Positions 1-42,538 of a stretch of 43,049 nt of DNA are shown in pieces (positions within the stretch are counted from its first letter, which is position 1; every line of letters begins with the position of its first letter). The notes beneath the pieces are model-generated. The model was not told the DNA's origin. It ran no database searches and worked only from the letters and a program-made list of their open reading frames with translations. Position numbers and translations under genes: made by a program. The stretch covers positions 1 through 43,049 of the forward strand of contig JAITND010000012.1 of assembly GCA_031290625.1 (NCBI GenBank), given 5' to 3'. This DNA comes from Endomicrobium sp. (GTDB lineage: Bacteria > Elusimicrobiota > Endomicrobiia > Endomicrobiales > Endomicrobiaceae).

Positions 1-855
1 GTTTGCTTCTTTTTCTTCTACTTCTCTACGTACTACTGCTAGGGCTGCCTGTACTTCTGATAGTTTTTCTTCTGCTGCACGCGACTCTCCCTGCACTCTT
101 TCTAGGTCTGCCTGTAATCCTTCTACTTCTTTTTTTGTGTCTTGTAGGGATATCCCCATATTACTTCTCTTTTTTGTTCTTCTTCTTTGTCTTTCTCTGT
201 CCGTAATCTTCGCATTTCTGTAAATGTTCTTGCTAGGTCTCCCTGTGCTTTTGCTAGGTCTACTTTATATCGGTTTACTTCTTTTTTTGCTTCTTTTTTT
301 GCTTCTTCTTTTTCTTCTTCTGCTCGGCGAAGGGATGCACTTTCTTGTTTTAGCCGCTTGATATTATCATCAAGAAACGTCTGAAATTCTTCCGATCTAG
401 CGTTTGCTTCTCTCTGTATTTTTTTTTGAAGTTTCTTCTAGTTTTCTAGTCTTTTCTTCTAATTCTTCTTTTGCGCGCGCTTCTCTTCTCTTTGCTTTTT
501 TGGCTACTCTGTCTCTTTCTGCAGCAGATGCTTCTCTACGCACTCTTTCTACTTCTCCCGCGTCTTTGTTTCTTTCTTCTTTTTCTGTGCGCGCTCTTGT
601 TTCTGCGGTTCCTTTCTGTAATCTTTCTAGCGCTTTTGCCAACCTGTCTCTTTCTGCTGCTACTGCTTGTTCATTTTCTGCTGATACTCTAACTATTTTG
701 GTCATCGCTTCTGTCATTTCTGTCCGTTCTTTTATTAGTTCTCTCTGCGCTGCTTCTAGTTCTTCCCGGGTTTTTTCACCAAGAGAATCGCCGTTAAATA
801 AAACTAGCGCAACCAGCGCTATCAGTAACTTGATCTTTAATAATTTTGTTATCAT
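1..855 (-). pseudogene. secreted coiled-coil protein, two frameshifts, 3' end beyond window
   Basis: Starts at an ATG (853-855) with a GGGGGA ribosome site 8 nt upstream. The first 27 residues form a signal peptide or membrane anchor (MITKLLKIKLLIALVALVLF), followed only by charged heptad-like sequence rich in E, K, R and A. The first frame stops at 397, just after an A9 tract (419-427). Removing one A restores a coiled coil that runs to about 125, where a second shift near an A6 tract (about 171-176) is needed; adding one A there restores coiled coil to the left edge. Imperfect repeats of the type DLA(K/R)/DLE recur every 20-30 residues. I recognise no family. Long low-complexity coiled coils of this kind can be structural or host-interaction proteins, but no function can be assigned. 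It could be a pseudogene, a slippage-expressed gene, or contain homopolymer sequencing errors. Confidence 0.6.
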
Positions 856-1208
856 ACTTGTCCCCCATAATAGTTATTTAAGTCTAGTATCATTAATAGT
901 TTACTATTTTTCTCTTTCTTTTCTTTGAAAATTGTGATTTTTTGTAAAAATGTAAAAAGTTAGATAAACGCATTTTGAAGTGTTACAAGATAAAAGAAAG
1001 AATTTTGCCAGTATTAGAAAAAACATAACGTTAAGATTGCTTTGTGTGGATTTTGATACAGAAATTTTGCTTAGACCTTTCATAGAACTTCTAACCTATT
1101 AATAAAAATTTGTAAAAATTTATGATATAACAACCATGCGAGTTCTAGCTGGATTGTTAGCTAAGATATCAAAATGCAAGTATTTGGCAAGATGTTTTAG
1201 AGGAATGA
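856..1208. other. 353-bp AT-rich intergenic region between divergent genes
   Basis: This gap separates the minus-strand coiled-coil gene from plus-strand nadE, so it should hold both promoters. Only the nadE-side extended -10 near 1123-1131 looks convincing. No ORF with a plausible start and ribosome site was seen. Confidence 0.5.
1123..1131 (+). promoter_or_regulatory. extended -10 promoter candidate for nadE
   Basis: The sequence TGATATAAC gives a TG dinucleotide one base upstream of TATAAC, an extended -10 element. The spacing to the nadE start leaves a leader of about 70 nt. No good -35 lies 17 bp upstream, as is usual for extended -10 promoters. Sequence match only. Confidence 0.4.
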
Positions 1209-3098
1209 ATGAAATACGGATTTGTAAAAATTGCGGCGGCGACGCCGAATGTCATCGTTGCGAACCCGCAAGAAAATGCGTCTGAAATAGTGAAGCTTAT
1301 AAAGCAAGCAAACACAAGTTTGGTTGAGCTTTTAGTTTTTCCCGAGCTTTGCGTAAGCGGATATACATGCGGGGAGTTGTTTTTATCCGACGTTGTAAAA
1401 GAATCGGTCTACAAAGCTTTAGATATAATACGTAAATCTACTGTTGGAAAGAAGTCTCTAATTTTTGTCGGATCGCCGACATGGAGAGAAGGTAAACTTT
1501 ATTCTTGCGCCGTCGCGTTTCAAAACGGAAAAGTTTTAGGCGTTGTTCCTAAAACGTATCTTCCTTCTTATTCAGAATTTTATGAACTTCGTCATTTTAC
1601 TTCCGGAAAGAATATATCCAGCTTTATTAAACTTTGTGGGCAAGACGTTCCATTTGGAACGAATATAATTTTTTCAGCGAAGAATAACGAAAATATAAAA
1701 ATATCTGCGGAGATATGCGAGGATATGTTTACGGTATCTCCGCCGTCTAATAGTCACGCTCAAGCCGGCGCAACCGTAATAGCAAATCTTTCGGCATCTA
1801 ACGAGCTTATAGGAAAAAGCGATTACAGAAGGACGTTAATAAAAGCGCAAAGCGGGCGTTTGTCTTGCGGATACGTGTATGCTTCCGCGGGAAGTAGCGA
1901 GTCTGTAAGTGATATAATATTTTCAGGGCATCGTATTATTGCAGAAAACGGAGTTATTCTTACAGAAAGCGGGCTTTTCAAAGAAGGTCTTACTATAAGC
2001 GAAATAGATACTGAAAGACTTGCTTACGAACGTCGTCGGCTAAATGTTTTTGAAACAAATTCTGAAGGGTATCTTAATGTGGAATTTGATTTTAATGAAA
2101 CGGGAGAAAGTCTTACAAGGTTTGTTTCTCCGTTGCCGTTTGTTCCAAACGATGCAGATTCTTTATCAAACCGCGCGGAATTGATATTAAAAATTCAATC
2201 GCAGGCTTTGGCGGAAAGATTAAAATTTACTGGGCTTAATGCAGTTATAGGTATTTCTGGAGGGCTGGATTCTACTCTTGCTTTGCTTGTAATATTGCGA
2301 AGTTATGAAATACTCGGCAAAGACAAGAAAGATATTATAGCTGTTACTATGCCGGGACATGGAACAAGCGAAAGAACTTTAAAGAATGTGGGAAAGTTGA
2401 CTAAGGCTGTAAATGTACATATTAGAGAAATCTCAATAACAGAATCTGTTGATAAGCATTTAAAAGATATTAAACATAAAGGCGGTAAAGACATAACATA
2501 TGAAAATGCTCAAGCCCGCGAACGTACGCAGATATTGATGGACATAGCCAACGCTGAGAACGGATACGTAATAGGCACGGGCGATTTGTCCGAAAATGCT
2601 TTAGGTTGGTGTACCTATAATGGCGATCATATGTCTATGTATGCGGTAAATTCTTCGGTCCCTAAAACTCTTGTAAAGCATCTTGTTTCTTACGAATCTC
2701 AAAGAGTTAAAAAATATAAAGAAGCTTTGATGGATATTTTAAATACAGACATAAGCCCTGAACTTCTTCCGTTAAAATATGGAAAAATTTCTCAGAAGAC
2801 AGAAGATATAATAGGACCTTACGAATTACACGACTTCTTTTTATATTACACTGTCCGCTTCGGACAAAAACCTGAAAAAACGCTTTTTCTGGCAACAAAA
2901 GCATTTAACAAAACTTATTCCAAAGAGAATATAGAAAAACATTTTAGGACTTTTTTAAAACGTTTCTTTTTCAGTCAATTCAAAAGGAATTGTTGTCCTG
3001 ATGGAATTAAGATAGGAACAATTTCTCTATCGCCCCGAGGATATTGGAGAATGCCAACTGAAAGCAGCGCAGTTGCTTGGCTTAACGACATATATTAG
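1209..3098 (+). CDS. nadE: glutamine-dependent NAD+ synthetase
   Basis: Makes NAD+ from nicotinate adenine dinucleotide, ATP and glutamine, the last step of NAD synthesis in the cytosol. The 629-residue protein has the two-domain form. An N-terminal nitrilase-type glutaminase domain (about 1-290) carries the Glu in FPEL (E46), the Lys in VVPKTYLP (about 114) and the Cys in AEICEDMF (about 170). The C-terminal synthetase domain carries the SGGLDST pyrophosphate loop (about 350) and GTGDLSENALGW (about 456). Length matches the long bacterial class. The ATG at 1209 follows GAGGA closely; an ATG at 1205 is out of frame. It is intact, stands alone and is followed by an IS relic. The glutaminase domain implies that glutamine rather than free ammonia is the nitrogen donor. 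Confidence 0.95.
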   Translation: MKYGFVKIAAATPNVIVANPQENASEIVKLIKQANTSLVELLVFPELCVSGYTCGELFLSDVVKESVYKALDIIRKSTVGKKSLIFVGSPTWREGKLYSCAVAFQNGKVLGVVPKTYLPSYSEFYELRHFTSGKNISSFIKLCGQDVPFGTNIIFSAKNNENIKISAEICEDMFTVSPPSNSHAQAGATVIANLSASNELIGKSDYRRTLIKAQSGRLSCGYVYASAGSSESVSDIIFSGHRIIAENGVILTESGLFKEGLTISEIDTERLAYERRRLNVFETNSEGYLNVEFDFNETGESLTRFVSPLPFVPNDADSLSNRAELILKIQSQALAERLKFTGLNAVIGISGGLDSTLALLVILRSYEILGKDKKDIIAVTMPGHGTSERTLKNVGKLTKAVNVHIREISITESVDKHLKDIKHKGGKDITYENAQARERTQILMDIANAENGYVIGTGDLSENALGWCTYNGDHMSMYAVNSSVPKTLVKHLVSYESQRVKKYKEALMDILNTDISPELLPLKYGKISQKTEDIIGPYELHDFFLYYTVRFGQKPEKTLFLATKAFNKTYSKENIEKHFRTFLKRFFFSQFKRNCCPDGIKIGTISLSPRGYWRMPTESSAVAWLNDIY

Positions 3099-3119
3099 AA
3101 ATGATGCGTCGTCTCTTAT

Positions 3120-3318
3120 GACGACCTGACCTTCCCGCCGAAAAAGCGGGCAAATAGAAATTAGCGAAAAATGGAAAAATACAAAAAGGGAAGGTAGAGG
3201 TATGAAAAGAAGCAAGTTTAGCGAGGAACAGATTATTGGCATATTAAATGAAGCTGAAAGAGGCGTAAAAGTACTAGATTTGATTAGGAAATATGGGATC
3301 GCGGCATATTTCGCCTAA
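3120..3318 (+). mobile_element. IS3-family (IS407-like) relic: left end plus OrfA start
   Basis: From 3202, behind a good AGAGG ribosome site, 38 codons read MKRSKFSEEQIIGILNEAE and then KVLDLIRKYGI. This is the classic N-terminal helix-turn-helix of IS3-family OrfA transposases (IS407/IS2-like proteins starting MKxSxFTEEQI). The frame stops at 3318, right after the motif where SxxTFYxW would follow. Upstream, GACCTGACC at 3123 resembles the outer end of such elements, and CCCGC...GCGGG forms a small hairpin near 3134-3150. OrfB and the right end are absent, so this is a dead remnant of about 200 bp. Confidence 0.75.
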
Positions 3319-3334
3319 CTTATTATTGGCTTAT

Positions 3335-3343
3335 GGGGGGGGG
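3335..3343 (+). promoter_or_regulatory. G9 tract acting as ribosome site of the SemiSWEET gene
   Basis: Nine G residues end one base before the ATG at 3345. No purine-mixed Shine-Dalgarno exists, so the run itself is the only candidate; it can pair with the anti-Shine-Dalgarno using G-U wobbles. Homopolymeric G runs are slippage-prone, so its length could alter translation. The tract also lies in frame after an alternative ATG at 3333. Compare the G15 tract upstream of the gene at 18395-18826. Confidence 0.4.
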
Positions 3344-3344
3344 C

Positions 3345-3629
3345 ATGATAGAATACGTAAAGTTTTTTGTGGAGTTATGTTTTGGGTTGGGTATGTTTAT
3401 AAACGCCGTTCTTTTTACTCCTCAGATAGTTAGTCTGTTCAAAACTAAAAATTCCAAAGGACTTTCTTTAACTACTTTCATCGGGTTTAATATTATCCAG
3501 ATATTTAGTCTTTTACACGGCTATATTTATAATGATTATGTTTTTATGTTTGGAATGTTATTAAGTTTGATGTTATGCGGATGCGTTACTTTTTTGATTA
3601 TTCTGTACAGATTTAAACCCCGAGTTTAA
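3345..3629 (+). CDS. SemiSWEET / PQ-loop small membrane transporter
   Basis: A 94-residue membrane protein with three predicted helices (about 5-25, 38-58, 62-88). The motif LFTPQIVSLFKTKNSKGLS is the PQ-loop signature at the end of helix 1 of the MtN3/SemiSWEET family, half-size transporters that dimerise to move sugars or related small solutes. Length is typical for bacterial SemiSWEETs (85-100). I chose the ATG at 3345 because the G-tract lies just upstream; starting at 3333 would add MGGG by reading through the tract. It follows an IS3 relic and precedes the polyamine genes, with no obvious functional link. The substrate cannot be told from sequence. Confidence 0.8.
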   Translation: MIEYVKFFVELCFGLGMFINAVLFTPQIVSLFKTKNSKGLSLTTFIGFNIIQIFSLLHGYIYNDYVFMFGMLLSLMLCGCVTFLIILYRFKPRV

Positions 3630-3673
3630 AAAGATAATTTTTGCGAGTGAAAAGAAGCAAAAAAGGGAATATG

Positions 3674-3691
3674 CAAAACAGTTCTGTTTTG
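3674..3691. promoter_or_regulatory. 18-bp palindrome, operator-like or weak hairpin
   Basis: CAAAACAG-TT-CTGTTTTG is a perfect 8-bp dyad with a 2-nt centre, lying between the SemiSWEET gene and nspC. The tiny loop and absence of a following T-run argue against a terminator, so a protein-binding dyad upstream of nspC is possible. No regulator is identified. Confidence 0.3.
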
Positions 3692-3778
3692 GCTAGAGGA
3701 TAGCATTGTTCAAATATAGAAGACTTTATAAGATTTATTTGGAAGACGTCCCGTTGTTTATTAAGGAGAGAGTGGTAA

Positions 3779-4885
3779 ATGGTTAAAAAGATAGAAACGC
3801 CTTATTATCTGATTGACGAAAAGAAACTATTAAAGAATCTCAAAAAAATTGAATATGTAAGAAATTTCAGCGGAGCTAAGTCAGTATTGGCGTTGAAATG
3901 TTTCTCTACGTGGTCTGTTTTTGATTTGATGAGCAAATATATGGACGGCACTACAAGCAGTTCTTTGTACGAAACAAAACTTGGTTACGAACAGTTTGGC
4001 AAAGAAACGCATGCATTCAGCGTCGCTTATTGTGCCGAAGACATCAAAGCTCTTAAAAAGATTTCAGACAAGATTATATTTAATTCTGCGTCTCAGCTGA
4101 AAATGTTTTATAAAGAAGTAAAGCATATAGATATAGGTTTAAGAATAAACTCCGGAATTAGTTATTCTCATTTTGATTTGGCAGATCCTGCTAGAAAATA
4201 TTCCAGACTTGGCGTAATTTTTATTAAAGATATCATGTCCGTTTTGGATAAACTGAGCGGGGTGATGTTTCATTATAATTGCGAAAACGACGACTTTGGC
4301 GCCTTTAGCAAAATGTTGGACAAAATAGCTTCAAAATACGAGAAAATCCTTCATAAAGTTAAGTGGGTCAGTTTGGGCGGGGGATTGTATTTTACAAAAG
4401 AAGGCTATCCCTTAGACAAGTTTTGCGAGAAATTAAAAAGTTTTAGCGAACAATACGACGTGCAGGTTTATTTGGAGCCGGGAGAAGCGGCAATTACTAA
4501 AAGCTGCGAGCTTGTTACAACTGTTTTAGACATTGTAAAGAATGTAAAAGATATAGCTATAGTCGACGCCTCTATTGAAGCCCATATGTTAGATCTTCTT
4601 ATTTACAGGACTCCCGCTAAAATGGAATCCGATGCGGGCAAACATAAATATATAGTTGCGGGACGTTCTTGTTTAGCAGGCGATGTTTTTGGGGAATACA
4701 AGTTTAAGAGCAAATTAAAAGTTGGTTCTACAGTATGTTTTGCCGACGCTGCAGGGTATACAATGGTCAAGAAAAACTGGTTTAACGGTATAAAAATGCC
4801 GTCTATTGCGCTAAAGAGGCTTAATGGAAAGGTGGAAATTATCAAACAGTTTTTATATAACGACTTCCTATCCGATTTGTCGTAA
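3779..4885 (+). CDS. nspC: carboxynorspermidine/carboxyspermidine decarboxylase
   Basis: A PLP enzyme of the alanine-racemase-fold (fold III) decarboxylases that converts carboxy(nor)spermidine to (nor)spermidine in the cytosol. The 368-residue length is typical. The PLP lysine is in SVLALKCFS (K40). Later motifs are LGGGLYFTKEGYPLD, the phosphate-binding LEPGEAAI (about 240) and the partner-subunit GRSCLAGDVFGEY (about 300) that brings the catalytic Cys. AAGGAGAGAG precedes the start. The next gene is the matching carboxy(nor)spermidine dehydrogenase, so both steps of the aspartate-semialdehyde route to triamines are present; the asd gene making that semialdehyde lies at 8621-9640. Whether the product is spermidine or norspermidine depends on the available diamine and is not visible here. 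Confidence 0.93.
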   Translation: MVKKIETPYYLIDEKKLLKNLKKIEYVRNFSGAKSVLALKCFSTWSVFDLMSKYMDGTTSSSLYETKLGYEQFGKETHAFSVAYCAEDIKALKKISDKIIFNSASQLKMFYKEVKHIDIGLRINSGISYSHFDLADPARKYSRLGVIFIKDIMSVLDKLSGVMFHYNCENDDFGAFSKMLDKIASKYEKILHKVKWVSLGGGLYFTKEGYPLDKFCEKLKSFSEQYDVQVYLEPGEAAITKSCELVTTVLDIVKNVKDIAIVDASIEAHMLDLLIYRTPAKMESDAGKHKYIVAGRSCLAGDVFGEYKFKSKLKVGSTVCFADAAGYTMVKKNWFNGIKMPSIALKRLNGKVEIIKQFLYNDFLSDLS

Positions 4886-6278: not shown

Positions 6279-6459
6279 TATAGTTTTGTTAATTTTAATT
6301 TAAAAAGCTTTTATCGTTGTTACCTCCCCTCCCCCTTAAAAAACAATCTAATCGCAATAATATCATTTTGTAAATATTTAATAAATTGTTTTATAGCTCT
6401 ATAATATGTTTCTATAGAAAAGAAAAATACTCTATACGAATAAACAATAAGGATGAACA

Positions 6460-11839: not shown

Positions 11840-12162
11840 TCATTTTATAATCATTTTATATTTTTTCATACTGTTTTCAGTCTCTTCTGCGGGTACATCA
11901 GTTTTATTTGTAACGCTTCTTTTCTCGATCATCCAAATCATCCACATCCCATACCCGCATCCAAAAATTAAACCGAGTAGACGCTGCGCGTTGCCTTAGT
12001 CTTAGGTCGCATAAGAACTTCACATTGGTCGCTGAGCAAATCGGCATAGCCAAAAAATGTTGGATTTCCGCTATAACTCCTCATACTCGCGCCCTGTACT
12101 GTCATCATTTGCGAACACATCAATGTAAACGCTAACACCATAACAACAATTTCCTTTAACAT
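11840..12162 (-). pseudogene. secreted/membrane small protein, probably frameshifted
   Basis: Behind AAAGGAGC, the frame begins with a clear signal peptide (MLKEIVVMVLAFTLMCSQMM) and continues for 64 residues to a stop at 11968. Just before that stop another frame opens into LLGLIFGCGYGMWMIWMI, a transmembrane helix, and a hydrophilic tail ending MKKYKMIIK at 11840. One indel near 11975-12000 would join the two into a protein of about 105 residues with a signal peptide and a membrane anchor. It lies 30 bp upstream of the 226-residue membrane protein. Function unknown; it could also be expressed as the 64-residue form. Confidence 0.4.
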
Positions 12163-12283
12163 TGCGCATCTGCTCCTTTTTCTTTACCCCGCCCCCTCCC
12201 CGCTGAAAACACTGCCGTCCTGTTTCGCCTTTTCTTTGTTCATTTCGGTAATTCTCTCACAGGTTCCATCCTTTTCTTGTCAT

Positions 12284-18394: not shown

Positions 18395-18826
18395 TTATTT
18401 GCGACCTTTTATCCGCAGGAAAGTAATATTTGAATAAGTTCTGTTTGGAGAATAAAATTTATAAGTTACAGAGCCGTCGGAATTGTCTAGTCTGCTTAAT
18501 CCTATTTTCATGGAACGAGCAAGACTTCTGAATGATTCTTCAAAATCTTTGATTTTTGCAAATCTGTTAAGTTTTATTGTTTTGTGAAACTCGTTCCACT
18601 TCGCCGAGTTAAAAGTTCTTTCTCTTATAAATTGTTTTACAATGTTTTCTTGTTTTATTTTGCGAGAGACAAGAATATCAACTATTTTTTTATCCAAAAC
18701 AACGTCAGTCGATATTTTTTGTTTGTTTAAAGGCTGAATTGTAAGCCAAATAACTACGCCGCAAATAAACAAAAATATTAAGTATATTTTAATCCAAACG
18801 CTTTCTTTTTTATTTTTACCCGACAC
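18395..18826 (-). CDS. hypothetical single-pass membrane protein, 143 residues
   Basis: An N-terminal helix (about 12-31, IYLIFLFICGVVIWLTI) anchors a basic periplasmic-type domain of about 110 residues ending TFLRIKGRK. No family recognised. The start is GTG (18824-18826); no ATG is available nearby. In place of a Shine-Dalgarno there is a run of 15 G ending 5 nt before the GTG. It is directly coupled to tsaD downstream, so the run could also affect tsaD expression. The preceding gene is the wrecked ctp protease of an ftsX-envC-ctp cluster, so this protein may once have belonged to an envelope operon. Confidence 0.65.
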   Translation of the reverse strand: MSGKNKKESVWIKIYLIFLFICGVVIWLTIQPLNKQKISTDVVLDKKIVDILVSRKIKQENIVKQFIRERTFNSAKWNEFHKTIKLNRFAKIKDFEESFRSLARSMKIGLSRLDNSDGSVTYKFYSPNRTYSNITFLRIKGRK

Positions 18827-18831
18827 GTATT

Positions 18832-18846
18832 CCCCCCCCCCCCCCC
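18832..18846 (-). promoter_or_regulatory. G15 tract in ribosome-site position
   Basis: Fifteen consecutive C on the plus strand (G15 on the coding strand) end 5 nt upstream of the GTG start of the 143-residue protein. The position matches a Shine-Dalgarno site, and G-U pairing with the anti-Shine-Dalgarno is possible. Tracts this long are unstable in replication. Confidence 0.5.
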
Positions 18847-38996: not shown

Positions 38997-39752
38997 AATA
39001 GGATTTTACCTCGCAATTGAAAGATCGCAACGATCGGTATTGTACCTAATTATTCAAACCTCGGTCAATAATTTTTACTATTGGCATATAGGAAATTTGC
39101 AGCCCGTATTTTGTATAAAAAGAGTAACGCCTATGGAAATATCTGTTTTTGGAAGCGGTTGCGAGCATTTAAAATTTCCCAAAAAGGAAACAGAAATGTG
39201 ATCGTCATATTTTGGGGCGAGTCCAAACTTGCTAAATTTGTTCAATCAGAAACATTTTTAGATATAGCCTTCAATATAGATTAACGGAAAGAAGCGACAA
39301 TAAAACAGCTCAGTTGCGCGTATTAGATATAAAAACTATAATTGCCGAAACAAAAGAAGACGTTTTGTTTTCAAATCAATTGAAGAAATAAATTTTCGTT
39401 TTTAAGCATATCTTAAGTATCGGCAACATATTCTGGGCGTATCGAAATCGTACTTCGATAATAATTGTCTTCAACCTCGCAAAATCGCACCTATCTGCGC
39501 CTAAATCCAATTATCAAACTGTCTCGCCGCAACCGCTTTTCCTTTAAATCTATCCCAAGTCGTCTCAGGTTTATTGTAAGTCTCCCTTTAAGAAGCCGAC
39601 ATATTAAAAGAATGCAGATAAACTTTTGATAGATTGCGCGAAATGTTCACAATTATTTCACATCTTGTTGTTCAAAAAAGAAAAAAATATTATATGTTTA
39701 CTATAAGCGGCGGGTAGGATGTTTTTTTACAGAATTTAACTAAGGAGCATAT
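38997..39752. other. 756-bp decayed region between divergent blocks
   Basis: No intact gene. On the plus strand MEISVFGSGCEHLKF then PKKETEM (39133-39201) resembles the start of small thioredoxin-like proteins (MxIxVxGTGCxxC), but the second Cys is Leu and the frame stops. Another open stretch, TAQLRVLDIKTIIAETKED (about 39310-39390), is unidentified. On the minus strand 39508-39590 holds the ETTW fragment listed separately. Minus-strand transcription of the ligase pseudogene and plus-strand transcription of the 39753 gene diverge here. Confidence 0.45.
39508..39590 (-). pseudogene. fragment of the ETTW small-protein family
   Basis: On the minus strand an open piece reads YNKPETTWDRFKGKAVAARQ then FDNWI. 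It parallels the plus-strand gene at 39753-40340, which has KKSETTWQRVKRKTHDAY. The DNA matches too: CTGAGACGACTTGG occurs at 39853-39866 and, inverted, at 39555-39568. It appears to be a broken paralogue in opposite orientation. Function unknown. Confidence 0.45.
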
Positions 39753-40340
39753 ATGAAGAAAATAGCGAGTATGTTGTTAGTATTTGTGTTGTTGGTTTCG
39801 CCCATGAAATTAGCTTTTGTAGATGGGGAGTGAGATGGAACTTGCAAGAAGTCTGAGACGACTTGGCAGAGAGTTAAAAGAAAAACGCATGACGCGTACT
39901 GTTGGTCGCGCGACCACAAGATAGAACTTCTTTTGAGCGGACTTATCGTCGTTGTTGCCGCTCTTACCGTGGACATATATAGGTGGCGAATAGATATAGA
40001 TAAGAATATTAACGAACTTGACGCTGCTTTGATCATGTTTAATCAAATTCGAGATGAACTTCGTAGGAGTATGCTAAGTGTAGGCGAGTTGGCTCATATT
40101 GGAGTAGAAAGAGAAGAGTCTCTATATATGATTGGGCACGTTTTAGGCGTCAACAGACAATACATACTTGGAATAAGAAATTTACGACGCGAGAACGTCG
40201 GCATAAGTGTCCCGGAATTGCCTGAACCATTGCCGGGGTTCGGGTGCATGCCTCCGAATAACCCGCCGTTACAGCGATTAGCCGCTTTTCCAGATCTCCA
40301 GCCGCTCCAGCCGCAAGGAGCAAGCCAAGAAGAGGAATAG
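39753..40340 (+). pseudogene. secreted membrane protein of the ETTW family, interrupted by one TGA
   Basis: AAGGAG lies 5 nt before an ATG opening a signal peptide (MKKIASMLLVFVLLVSPMKL then AFVDGE). Codon 27 is TGA (39831-39833). The same frame then continues unbroken for 168 codons: DGTCKKSETTWQRVKRKTHD, WSRDHKIELLLSGLIVVVAA (a membrane helix, about 65-80), a helical part (RDELRRSMLSVGELAHIGVE) and a proline-rich tail ending GASQEEE. A single nonsense change, for instance from GGA, explains it. Downstream TTG (39933) could give a shorter product. Family unknown. Readthrough or selenocysteine is not supported by other evidence. Confidence 0.5.
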
Positions 40341-40381
40341 GTTTTTAAATCTCTTACATTAGGTTTTTTCTCTTCAAGAAG

Positions 40382-40612
40382 CTAACGGCAGTAGTAATGG
40401 CGGTGGCCTAATAGGAATATATTGACGCCGTCGTTAGTAAAATCAGAGAGCGCCGTAGATATGCGTCCGATAGTAAGTTGATTTAATAATGCTCTCGTTT
40501 TAGAAAAAATTTCTTTTATCAATATATCTTCATATTCATTTGCTATTGCCTGAGAGAGTTTTATTTGAATTTTAGTTTTTTTATCGCTTATCTTTTTTAT
40601 GTCCTTTTCGTC
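40382..40612 (-). pseudogene. unidentified open frame without start
   Basis: On the minus strand 76 codons read DEKDIKKISDKKTKIQIKLS, then ANEYEDILIKEIFSKTRALL, then GRISTALSDFTNDGVNIFLL, ending at 40382. No start codon is in frame; an ATG one frame off (MRRKGHKKDKR) lies just upstream, so a frameshift after about 10 codons is likely. The sequence looks like a helical soluble protein, but I recognise no family. The rest of 40341-40894 shows no gene. Confidence 0.35.
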
Positions 40613-40937: not shown

Positions 40938-41426
40938 ATGAATGCTGTAATTAAAACTTCAATGGGAACAATTAAAATTAAACTTCTCCACGAAAACGTT
41001 CCTCTAACGGTATCTAATTTTGTAGAGCTTGCCGAAGGAACCAAAGAATTTACAGATGCAAAAACAGGAAAAACTGTAAAAAGAAAATTTTATGAGGGGT
41101 TGGTTTTCCACAGAGTAATGCCTGAATTTATGATTCTTGGAATGGGAACCGGCGGTCCGGGGTACAAATTTCAAGATGAAATAGACCCTTCTCTAAAGTT
41201 TGATAAGCCCGGAATTTTGGCTATGGCTAACTCAGGACCTAATACGAATGGTTCGCAATTTTTTATAACTGAAGTTTCCACTCCTTGTCTTAATGGAAAC
41301 CACACAATATTTGGATAACTTGCAGAAGGTTTGAATGTAATAAAAAAGATAGCAAGAACTGAAGTCGATTTTTCAGACAAGCCAGTTGATCCTGTTGTAA
41401 TTGAAAGCATTAAAATTGAAAAATAA
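40938..41426 (+). pseudogene. cyclophilin-type peptidyl-prolyl isomerase, nonsense codon and small deletion
   Basis: Reads as a compact cytosolic cyclophilin: [65 protein letters not shown] and [14 protein letters not shown] (41316-41318) then interrupts, but the same frame continues LAEGLNVIKKIARTEVDF to VVIESIKIEK and a stop at 41426, the normal C-terminus. Also, FMI is followed directly by LGMGTGG where the family has FMIQGGDPxGxGTGG, so about five residues including the active-site Gln are deleted. Both lesions together make this a pseudogene even if the stop were read through. Confidence 0.8.
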
Positions 41427-41942: not shown

Positions 41943-42240
41943 TCTGAGCTTAATAACGACAAAAACTTGACAACTGGATTGTGCAACTGAGCCGCAAGCT
42001 GTTTCTGAGACGCTAAATCAAGTTTAGCATGACGACAAAGGTAAAGACCATAACAACAGCCGTAACGACAGATACAAAAACATAAAAAAACTGGACATTT
42101 TAAATATCCTGCTTTTTAATTATATTTACATTCGGAATTATCCTCTAGCATACTGAGAAATATTCTTTGAAAGCGCAGTAGCATAGAGAAAGTATTTGTA
42201 AAATGAGATCATACTAGTAAAACAAAAACAAGGAAGGAGT
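41943..42240. other. gene-free gap after the PfpI gene
   Basis: Holds the dyad repeat at 42009-42033 and a strong AGGAAGGAG ribosome site (42231-42239) for the next frame. No other coding piece with a start and ribosome site was found. Confidence 0.5.
42009..42033. repeat. dispersed dyad repeat, copy 2
   Basis: GACGCTAAATCAAGTTTAGC then ATGAC, with a perfect GCTAAA/TTTAGC stem (42012-42028). Matches the copy at 12343-12367 at most positions. No T-run follows, so a terminator role for the PfpI gene is doubtful. Confidence 0.5.
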
Positions 42241-42538
42241 ATGAGTTTAAAGGTTGAAGATATAGATTTAGCAGGAACAGAGCGCGAATAATGAAATAAA
42301 GGATTTTAGAGCTAGAGAGGAAAGAAGTAGTGTATCTAATGAAGAGCATTACTTGATTACATGGAAAACAAGAAAGCAAGAGACAGAAATGAGCCAAAAC
42401 GACGCTTTAACATATAGCGTTTGTCCTAGCGAAGAAGTAATTATGCTAACTAAATCGGAATTAGAAGTAATTGTCTCCTGCTATGATAGCGCTGTTTGTG
42501 GTCGGAGCAGGGTTAGTAGTTTTGTAAATATTTGGTAG
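42241..42538 (+). pseudogene. small protein gene, frameshifted, with possible C-terminal membrane helix
   Basis: A very good AGGAAGGAG site precedes an ATG, and 16 codons (MSLKVEDIDLAGTERE) end at a stop at 42289-42291. One frame away the reading continues NEIKDFRAREERSSVSNEEH, then EVIMLTKSELEVIVSCYD, to 42538. Near the end a third frame gives PAMIALFVVGAGLVVL, a membrane helix that would make sense after LEVIVS. Two indels would thus restore a protein of about 95 residues with a charged N-part and a tail anchor. No family recognised. Confidence 0.4.

Follow-up and report, generated by a model that had tools for sequence, protein, structure and literature searches.

A probable recombining family of exported or membrane-anchored proteins in an Endomicrobiellum-type bacterium, with decayed members on one contig

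The 43,049-nucleotide stretch of DNA analysed here (the window), which is the whole of contig C49 of genome G000 (1,182,413 bases, 55 contigs, 89% complete), contains a dead member of a gene family with many other copies in the same genome. Judged from sequence comparison, this is probably a lineage-specific, recombining family whose proteins are exported or anchored in a membrane, in a bacterium of the Endomicrobiellum type, and the window probably holds its debris. Genes of this family are assembled from a few alternative 5' flanks, a common signal-peptide-like leader, a basic core of the ETTW type, and a hydrophobic helix, with tails that mostly differ. The leader would direct the tail out through Sec to an anchored position in the envelope or beyond, where it would face the flagellate host, and recombination would be the source of new tails. 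Members of one promoter class may be turned on and off singly by slippage of a poly-C run next to a -10-like box.

A decayed family member in the window

The initial annotation had described a gene at 39753-40340 that is cut by a single in-frame TGA at codon 27 and is followed by 168 open codons, and its coordinates were exact: the frame begins with an ATG at 39753, is open from 39834 to 40337, and stops at 40338-40340 (Table 1). The signal-peptide-like start and the membrane helix that it had described fit the hydrophobicity of the protein, as the 19-residue Kyte-Doolittle means reached maxima of 2.21 at the start and 2.32 at the second helix. Members of the family share a layout of a signal-peptide-like start, a variable stretch, the ETTW core, a hydrophobic helix, and mostly differing tails. 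The stretch after the signal peptide varies in length among members, and codon 27 does not have a one-to-one match.

Table 1. Features of the leader family and of the duplicated block in the window
Feature	Coordinates	Strand	Evidence or remark
Third leader remnant (MLKEIVVMVLAFTLMCSQMMTVQGAS)	12081..12162	-	resembles start of C34 gene
Dead 3' end of recJ	39090..39334	+	alignment to C7: 9 mismatches in 245 aligned bases, with 8 gap columns
Inverted remnant of another family core (ETTWDRFKGKAVAAR)	39516..39590	-	translation, both profiles, blastn, repeat arms
5' flank type B, common to C7, C10, C37, C38, C20	39624..39752	+	DNA comparison
AAGGAG, ribosome-binding-site-like	39742..39747	+	ends 5 nt before ATG; read from sequence
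Decayed ETTW leader family member (pseudogene)	39753..40340	+	reading frame, leader and core profile matches
Signal-peptide-like start (MKKIASMLLVFVLLVSPMKLAFV)	39753..39821	+	frame, leader profile, hydrophobicity; no predictor used
In-frame TGA, real stop, codon 27	39831..39833	+	frame, genome stop usage
ETTWQRVKRK core motif	39855..39884	+	frame, core profile
Second hydrophobic helix (IELLLSGLIVVVAALTVDI), residues 57-75	39921..39977	+	hydrophobicity
Mid-frame stretch, 55/109 aligned bases differ from C7 copy	39990..40104	+	DNA alignment
Proline-rich tail	40209..40337	+	read from frame
3' flank common to C7 copy, end of duplicated block	40341..40457	+	DNA comparison

TGA is an ordinary stop codon in G000 and is not read as a residue. 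The 116 open stretches of at least 200 codons found in 207 kb of this genome ended in TAA (73), TGA (22), or TAG (21), and past the TGA of those 22 the distance to the next in-frame stop had a median of 10.5 codons and never exceeded 49. The window copy is therefore a pseudogene. That the TGA is instead read through or recoded, so that the window gene is alive, could be argued from the 168 open codons beyond it and from the TGAs also present in the closest paralogue (on C7), but that paralogue carries a frameshift as well, and given the stop usage of the genome the proposal was rejected as having next to no probability.

The window protein gave nothing below E 0.1 against PADLOC or PHROGs, and against Pfam it matched only Tcp11, at E 0.25. 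Relatives of the family were absent from the plasmids searched (E up to 0.01), and none of the 119 stretches that matched the pattern in IMG/VR viral contigs was confirmed. A tRNA scan of the window found none, and Rfam gave no match at the gathering score. An AlphaFold model of the read-through window protein together with one relative was uninformative (mean pLDDT 43.7).

Two further remnants of the family lie in the window. The inverted ETTW fragment upstream of the gene, noticed in the initial annotation, is real: the arms of the inverted repeat (39525-39581 and 39840-39896) are 57 nt long and 77% complementary, with a 14-bp identity visible inside. The likeness exceeds chance, as in searches across G000 the leader profile matched the fragment at E 1.7e-4 and the core profile at 7.3e-5. 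In addition, it matched 39 of 40 nt in a gene of another genome that bears a DUF1810 tail (G012:C25; blastn on fetched loci, E 1.5e-13). By this match, the fragment is a copy of another core type and not of the window gene. At the third remnant, the stretch 12081-12215 has 81% identity to the beginning of the C34 gene, which is intact and encodes 288 aa.

Elsewhere in the window, a cyclophilin-type peptidyl-prolyl isomerase (40938-41423) is cut by an in-frame TAA at 41316-41318; its Pfam match ends at position 125 of 159, and by eye the frame seems to be resumed past the TAA. Window segments 3127-3310, 6362-6415, and 42121-42473 are repeated in C7, C38, C48, and C24 at 73-96% identity.

Duplication of a recJ-linked block

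The closest paralogue of the window gene was the copy on C7, with 60% identity across 168 residues. Whether any copy has a sense codon in place of the TGA had been raised in the initial annotation, and C7 does have one there, although a frameshift and two TGAs at other places interrupt its frame. Immediately upstream of the C7 gene is an intact recJ (677 aa; NCBIfam recJ, E 7.5e-148), and the block common to the window and C7 consists of the end of recJ, the gene, and about 117 bases of 3' flank. From the alignment, this recJ-linked block is present twice in G000, and the window copy was made, along with the recJ end, from or together with the C7 locus, whose gene is likewise broken. The C7 locus, where recJ is retained, is the likely source of the duplicated block.

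Divergence between the two copies was uneven: 12.5% in the 5' flank, 10.5% from leader to helix, 50% in the mid-frame stretch 39990-40104, 16.7% in the C-terminal part, and 15.8% in the 3' flank. Recombinational replacement of the middle would explain this pattern best, with fast divergence of the middle as a possible alternative. The dN/dS ratio between the window copy and C7 was 1.56 from leader to helix and 2.54 in the C-terminal part. The excess over 1 did not reach significance (pooled Fisher p 0.08) and agrees with relaxed constraint; diversifying selection is not claimed.

Size and distribution of the family

Two profiles were used to find family members, a leader profile (A1) of six rows, five of them from G000, and a core profile (A2) of 16 rows, nine from G000. 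The leader profile gave 33 matches in G000 at E up to 10, with 28 at E up to 0.01 that fell in 25 places. Ten of the 25 matched solely in the first 44 of the 101 positions, which is the signal peptide, and are weaker members; unrelated signal peptides could also give such matches. The core profile identified 14 places at E up to 0.05, five of them outside the profile rows (C7, C26, C27, C28 at 35.3 kb, and the inverted window fragment). Eight of the 14 were open through leader, core, and helix: C9, C10, C13, C28 at 34.7 kb, C34, C37, C38, for which the open frame runs off the contig, and C48. The other six were broken or fragmentary (C7, C26, C27, C28 at 35.3 kb, and both window places). The member on C52 is open too, and its core is too divergent for the core profile. 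Contigs end inside or beside family genes on C31, C34, C38, C39, C43, C45, and C50; the family thus probably breaks the assembly, and its membership may be larger than counted.

Among 41 genomes of the genus including G000, ten matched the leader profile at E up to 0.1. G012, taken as Ca. Endomicrobiellum porotermitis, had 23 matches, G024 had one at 1.1e-13 with a TAG inside, G064 had one at 7.4e-4, and matches in the other genomes were 0.01 or weaker. The core profile matched nine of the 41 at E up to 0.05, and scored below 1e-5 only in G000, G012, G024, G064, and G025, each of which had supplied profile rows. A search of 59 relatives with the 168 residues of the window gene matched five at E up to 0.1, namely G000, G012 (1.8e-4), and three others with E of 0.018-0.08. 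Of 167 stretches that matched a pattern in the GTDB contig collection, two were confirmed, both from E. porotermitis. In the other 39 genus genomes, many of which are incomplete drafts, the family was rare, weak, or not found. According to a genus-wide study, the genus Endomicrobiellum holds all of the flagellate endosymbionts characterised so far (PMC11257099).

The initial annotation had spoken of a small family that was apparently expanding and decaying, and had proposed a search for more ETTW proteins in related genomes. Further copies were found in G000 and G012, and the counts of leader places and matches in these two genomes, together with the open and broken core places, agree with both expansion and decay; the word small was wrong, as the family extends far beyond the two pieces then noted. 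In searches against other collections, the six leader rows gave a best E of 0.011 against NCBIfam, with one member each, and the leader profile a best E of 0.13 against PDB. The C9 member matched one PHROG of unknown function at E 0.018.

Modules with different histories

Flank, signal peptide, and core were compared separately among ten members, for which shuffled sequences gave baseline identities of 58%, 59%, and 61%, respectively. C9, C48, and C52 were alike in the flank (89-93%) and the signal peptide (88-95%), and the core of C52 differed (67-71%); for the pair C9-C52 the three values were 91, 95, and 67. A second flank type was found in C10, C37, C49, and C7, with 69-83% identity in the flank and 84-87% in the signal peptide when the duplicated stretch of C7 was left out. 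Within this group C10 was 69-70% identical to the other three in the flank and 84-86% in the signal peptide, and its core matched those of C9 and C48 at 89%. Synonymous differences followed the same modules: in the signal peptide C9 and C10 differed at 9 of 14 sites, and their cores at none of 14 (Fisher p 0.0006), and C9 and C52 differed at 0 of 15 in the signal peptide versus 6 of 16 in the core (p 0.018), each pair having been picked from 21. On the strength of these comparisons, flank, signal peptide, and core have different histories within the same genes, and the genes are mosaics recombined between loci.

Repeats trouble assembly, and with several contig ends inside or beside family genes, the mosaics could in principle be chimeras made by a short-read assembler that joined similar repeats. 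This is improbable, as the C10 leader ends at about position 587 and the core begins at 624, which places the switch within about 40 bases and inside one read, and the modules are 10-30% apart in DNA. Furthermore, the separately assembled E. porotermitis also joins such a leader to more than one core type.

A palindromic 3' repeat, AGGTTCTGAA-x-TTCAGAACCT, was found in seven places at E < 1e-10, with one copy one base different at the ends. Six of the seven places are 3' of a family gene or a leader remnant (C9, C10, C16, C37, C38, and C50), and the seventh is on C6. Just upstream of the C52 family gene there is also an internal repeat of about 2.7 kb with 70% identity (G000:C52:11000-20000, 1-4221).

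Tails of family members

Tails mostly differ among members, with C49-C7 and C34-C26 as related pairs. The tail of the G012:C25 protein is a DUF1810 domain, matched in Pfam at E 3.9e-45 (153.5 bits, cut-off 25; model positions 2-136 of 136). The tail also matched Rv1873 (PDB 2jek; PDB E 9.1e-29) along the full domain; in G012:C25 the domain differs in standing behind an export-type leader and helix, and only this member has it. The statement in the initial annotation that there is no recognised homologue thus held for the window protein (Pfam, PADLOC, PHROGs, and plasmids) and for the leader (NCBIfam and PDB), and failed for the tail of this one relative.

By motif, the C13 tail is weakly OTU-like, below the Pfam cut-off. 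OTU (PF02338) was matched in one of eight members with C13-type tails, at E 0.02 and 15.8 bits against a cut-off of 23.3, Colicin_D (PF11429) matched two of the eight with a best E of 0.018, and a PDB profile search gave a best E of 0.28. The proteins with OTU-like tails (for example G000:C13:47910-48698) have a GDCGLYA domain and are exported or lipoprotein-like.

A common leader with differing C-terminal parts, one of them weakly OTU-like and one a DUF1810 domain, is also what would be expected if the leader exported short toxic tails against competitors or the host, in the manner of polymorphic toxins. This seems very improbable: no known toxin domain was found, the sole OTU match among the eight members was below the Pfam cut-off, and PADLOC gave no match for the three proteins scanned.

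Topology and possible role in the envelope

In each of the seven sequences tested, positive charge was higher in the 15 residues preceding the second helix than in the 15 following it, with a difference of 1 to 4 charges. This bias conflicts with a cleaved signal peptide followed by a stop-transfer helix. If both hydrophobic stretches were inserted, the tail would face the cytoplasm.

At E up to 0.001, the OTU-like tail family was present in 10 of the 41 genomes. Reading by eye placed it behind a lipoprotein-like signal five times (twice in G008, twice in G031, and once in G034) and behind a signal peptide with helix in G000, G012 (with a TAG), and G025; in G032 there is a plain signal peptide, and the remaining copies have no readable start. 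The leader of the family may do for OTU-like tails what lipid anchoring does elsewhere, and the occurrence of these tails behind lipoprotein-like signals elsewhere in the genus fits a role of the leader in the envelope. The family most likely consists of envelope or host-interface proteins that are shuffled and partly switchable, and the host-directed or envelope role proposed in the initial annotation is plausible.

Poly-C runs upstream of family leaders

On C9, C16, C48, and C52, a run of 12-17 C is followed directly or after two bases by AGAATAA[CG]TATAAT, and the leader starts 226-240 bases past the run. A search of the 41 genomes for the pattern C8+ N0-9 AATAANTATAAT, which was drawn from sites already seen, found seven sites, four in G000 and three in G012, of which only G012:C2 was new; the reversed control found none. 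All seven are upstream of a family leader, and the arrangement was found nowhere else in the 41 genomes. At six of the sites the leader is 142-224 bases beyond the box, and at G012:C2 the leader match (E 0.003) lies about equally far away. Open genes are behind four of the seven sites (C9, C48, C52, and G012:C21) and broken frames behind three (C16, G012:C11, and G012:C2). The lengths of the C runs were 8, 10, 12, 14, 14, 17, and 19, as read from one consensus per genome, in which assembled homopolymer lengths are unreliable.

Runs of C are common in G000 generally, with 22 runs of nine or more observed versus about 0.45 expected from composition, and 18 of the 22 are without the AATAANTATAAT arrangement. 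About 155 bases ahead of the start of the C10 gene there are 12 G in a row that lack the box, and the window copy has no such arrangement of poly-C and box. Contig C22 has a run of 22 C at its very start (G000:C22:1-900). Within the window, 15 C at 18832-18846 (15 G on the sense strand) are located five bases before the GTG of a minus-strand ORF, 18395-18826 (143 aa, with no Pfam match), at the place of a ribosome-binding site, and translational switching of this ORF is possible.

In several pathogens, a homopolymer in the promoter is the mark of phase-variable contingency loci for surface proteins. The sites described here resemble these loci, since C runs of unequal length adjoin a -10-like box ahead of several members of an exported family, and this suggests that they are phase-variable promoters that switch by slippage. 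They differ in that the organism is presumably an endosymbiont of a protist, and in that the lengths come from a single consensus per genome.

Host interface or eroding repeats

A further reading of these data, tentative and itself rather doubtful, is that an intracellular symbiont of termite-gut flagellates has a contingency system at the host interface, in which a modular leader of signal peptide, basic ETTW core, and short helix would be shuffled onto new tails, some of them enzymatic, and expressed stochastically from poly-C promoters. An unlikely though not far-fetched alternative is neutral: a repeated 5' segment of promoter and signal peptide would spread in an eroding genome and be fused by accident to other sequence, and most of the products would have no function and decay. 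Genome erosion in the genus is documented (PMC11257099), and several results are as this alternative predicts, including the broken core places, the broken frames behind three poly-C promoters, and the type B flank on C38, which with about five codons leads into an unrelated short frame. In addition, no significant purifying selection was found on the core except for the pair C38-C28a (p 0.04 among 21 pairs). However, the majority of the core places are open through leader, core, and helix, ETTW and the basic residues persist in two species while the tails turn over, and one tail is a complete DUF1810 domain, all of which argue against accidental fusion.

The closest likeness in build may be sought in other host-dependent bacteria. 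The signal-sequence family of the secreted proteins of phytoplasma sequence-variable mosaics (SVM), which is a Pfam model, was absent from a Pfam scan of ten family proteins at E up to 5. No sequence relation was found, and the Endomicrobiellum family differs in its second conserved part, the ETTW core and helix after the leader. The SVM genes, partly described in PMC5379588, are likewise present in many copies and join a conserved signal-peptide leader to differing mature parts, in a repeat-rich bacterium that depends on its host; the conserved leader and differing mature parts found here are a likeness of build and not membership. For another endosymbiont of termite-gut protists, from the Clostridia, possible host-directed proteins are likewise predicted to leave the cell through Sec, and the passages concerned describe eukaryotic-like genes rather than a shared leader or a recombining family (PMC10579323).

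Passages of the genus-wide study treat flagellate symbionts as metabolic partners (PMC11257099), and in its main text the terms effector, secret, ankyrin, signal peptide, and pseudogene do not occur. Nor do effector, secret, ankyrin, signal peptide, ubiquitin, and hypothetical occur in a single-cell study of such symbionts (PMC8809381). Searches of the open-access literature, which leave subscription journals mostly outside, found nothing on phase variation in Endomicrobia or protist endosymbionts, on effectors or signal peptides in elusimicrobial flagellate symbionts, or on a multigene family with a conserved leader in protist endosymbionts. On/off switching in such a partner of a protist would be unexpected. 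If the host-interface reading is true, the bacterium would be evading or manipulating its protist host and not only feeding it. A family of exported proteins that recombines and may be phase-variable would offer a way to study how such a bacterium meets its host cell.
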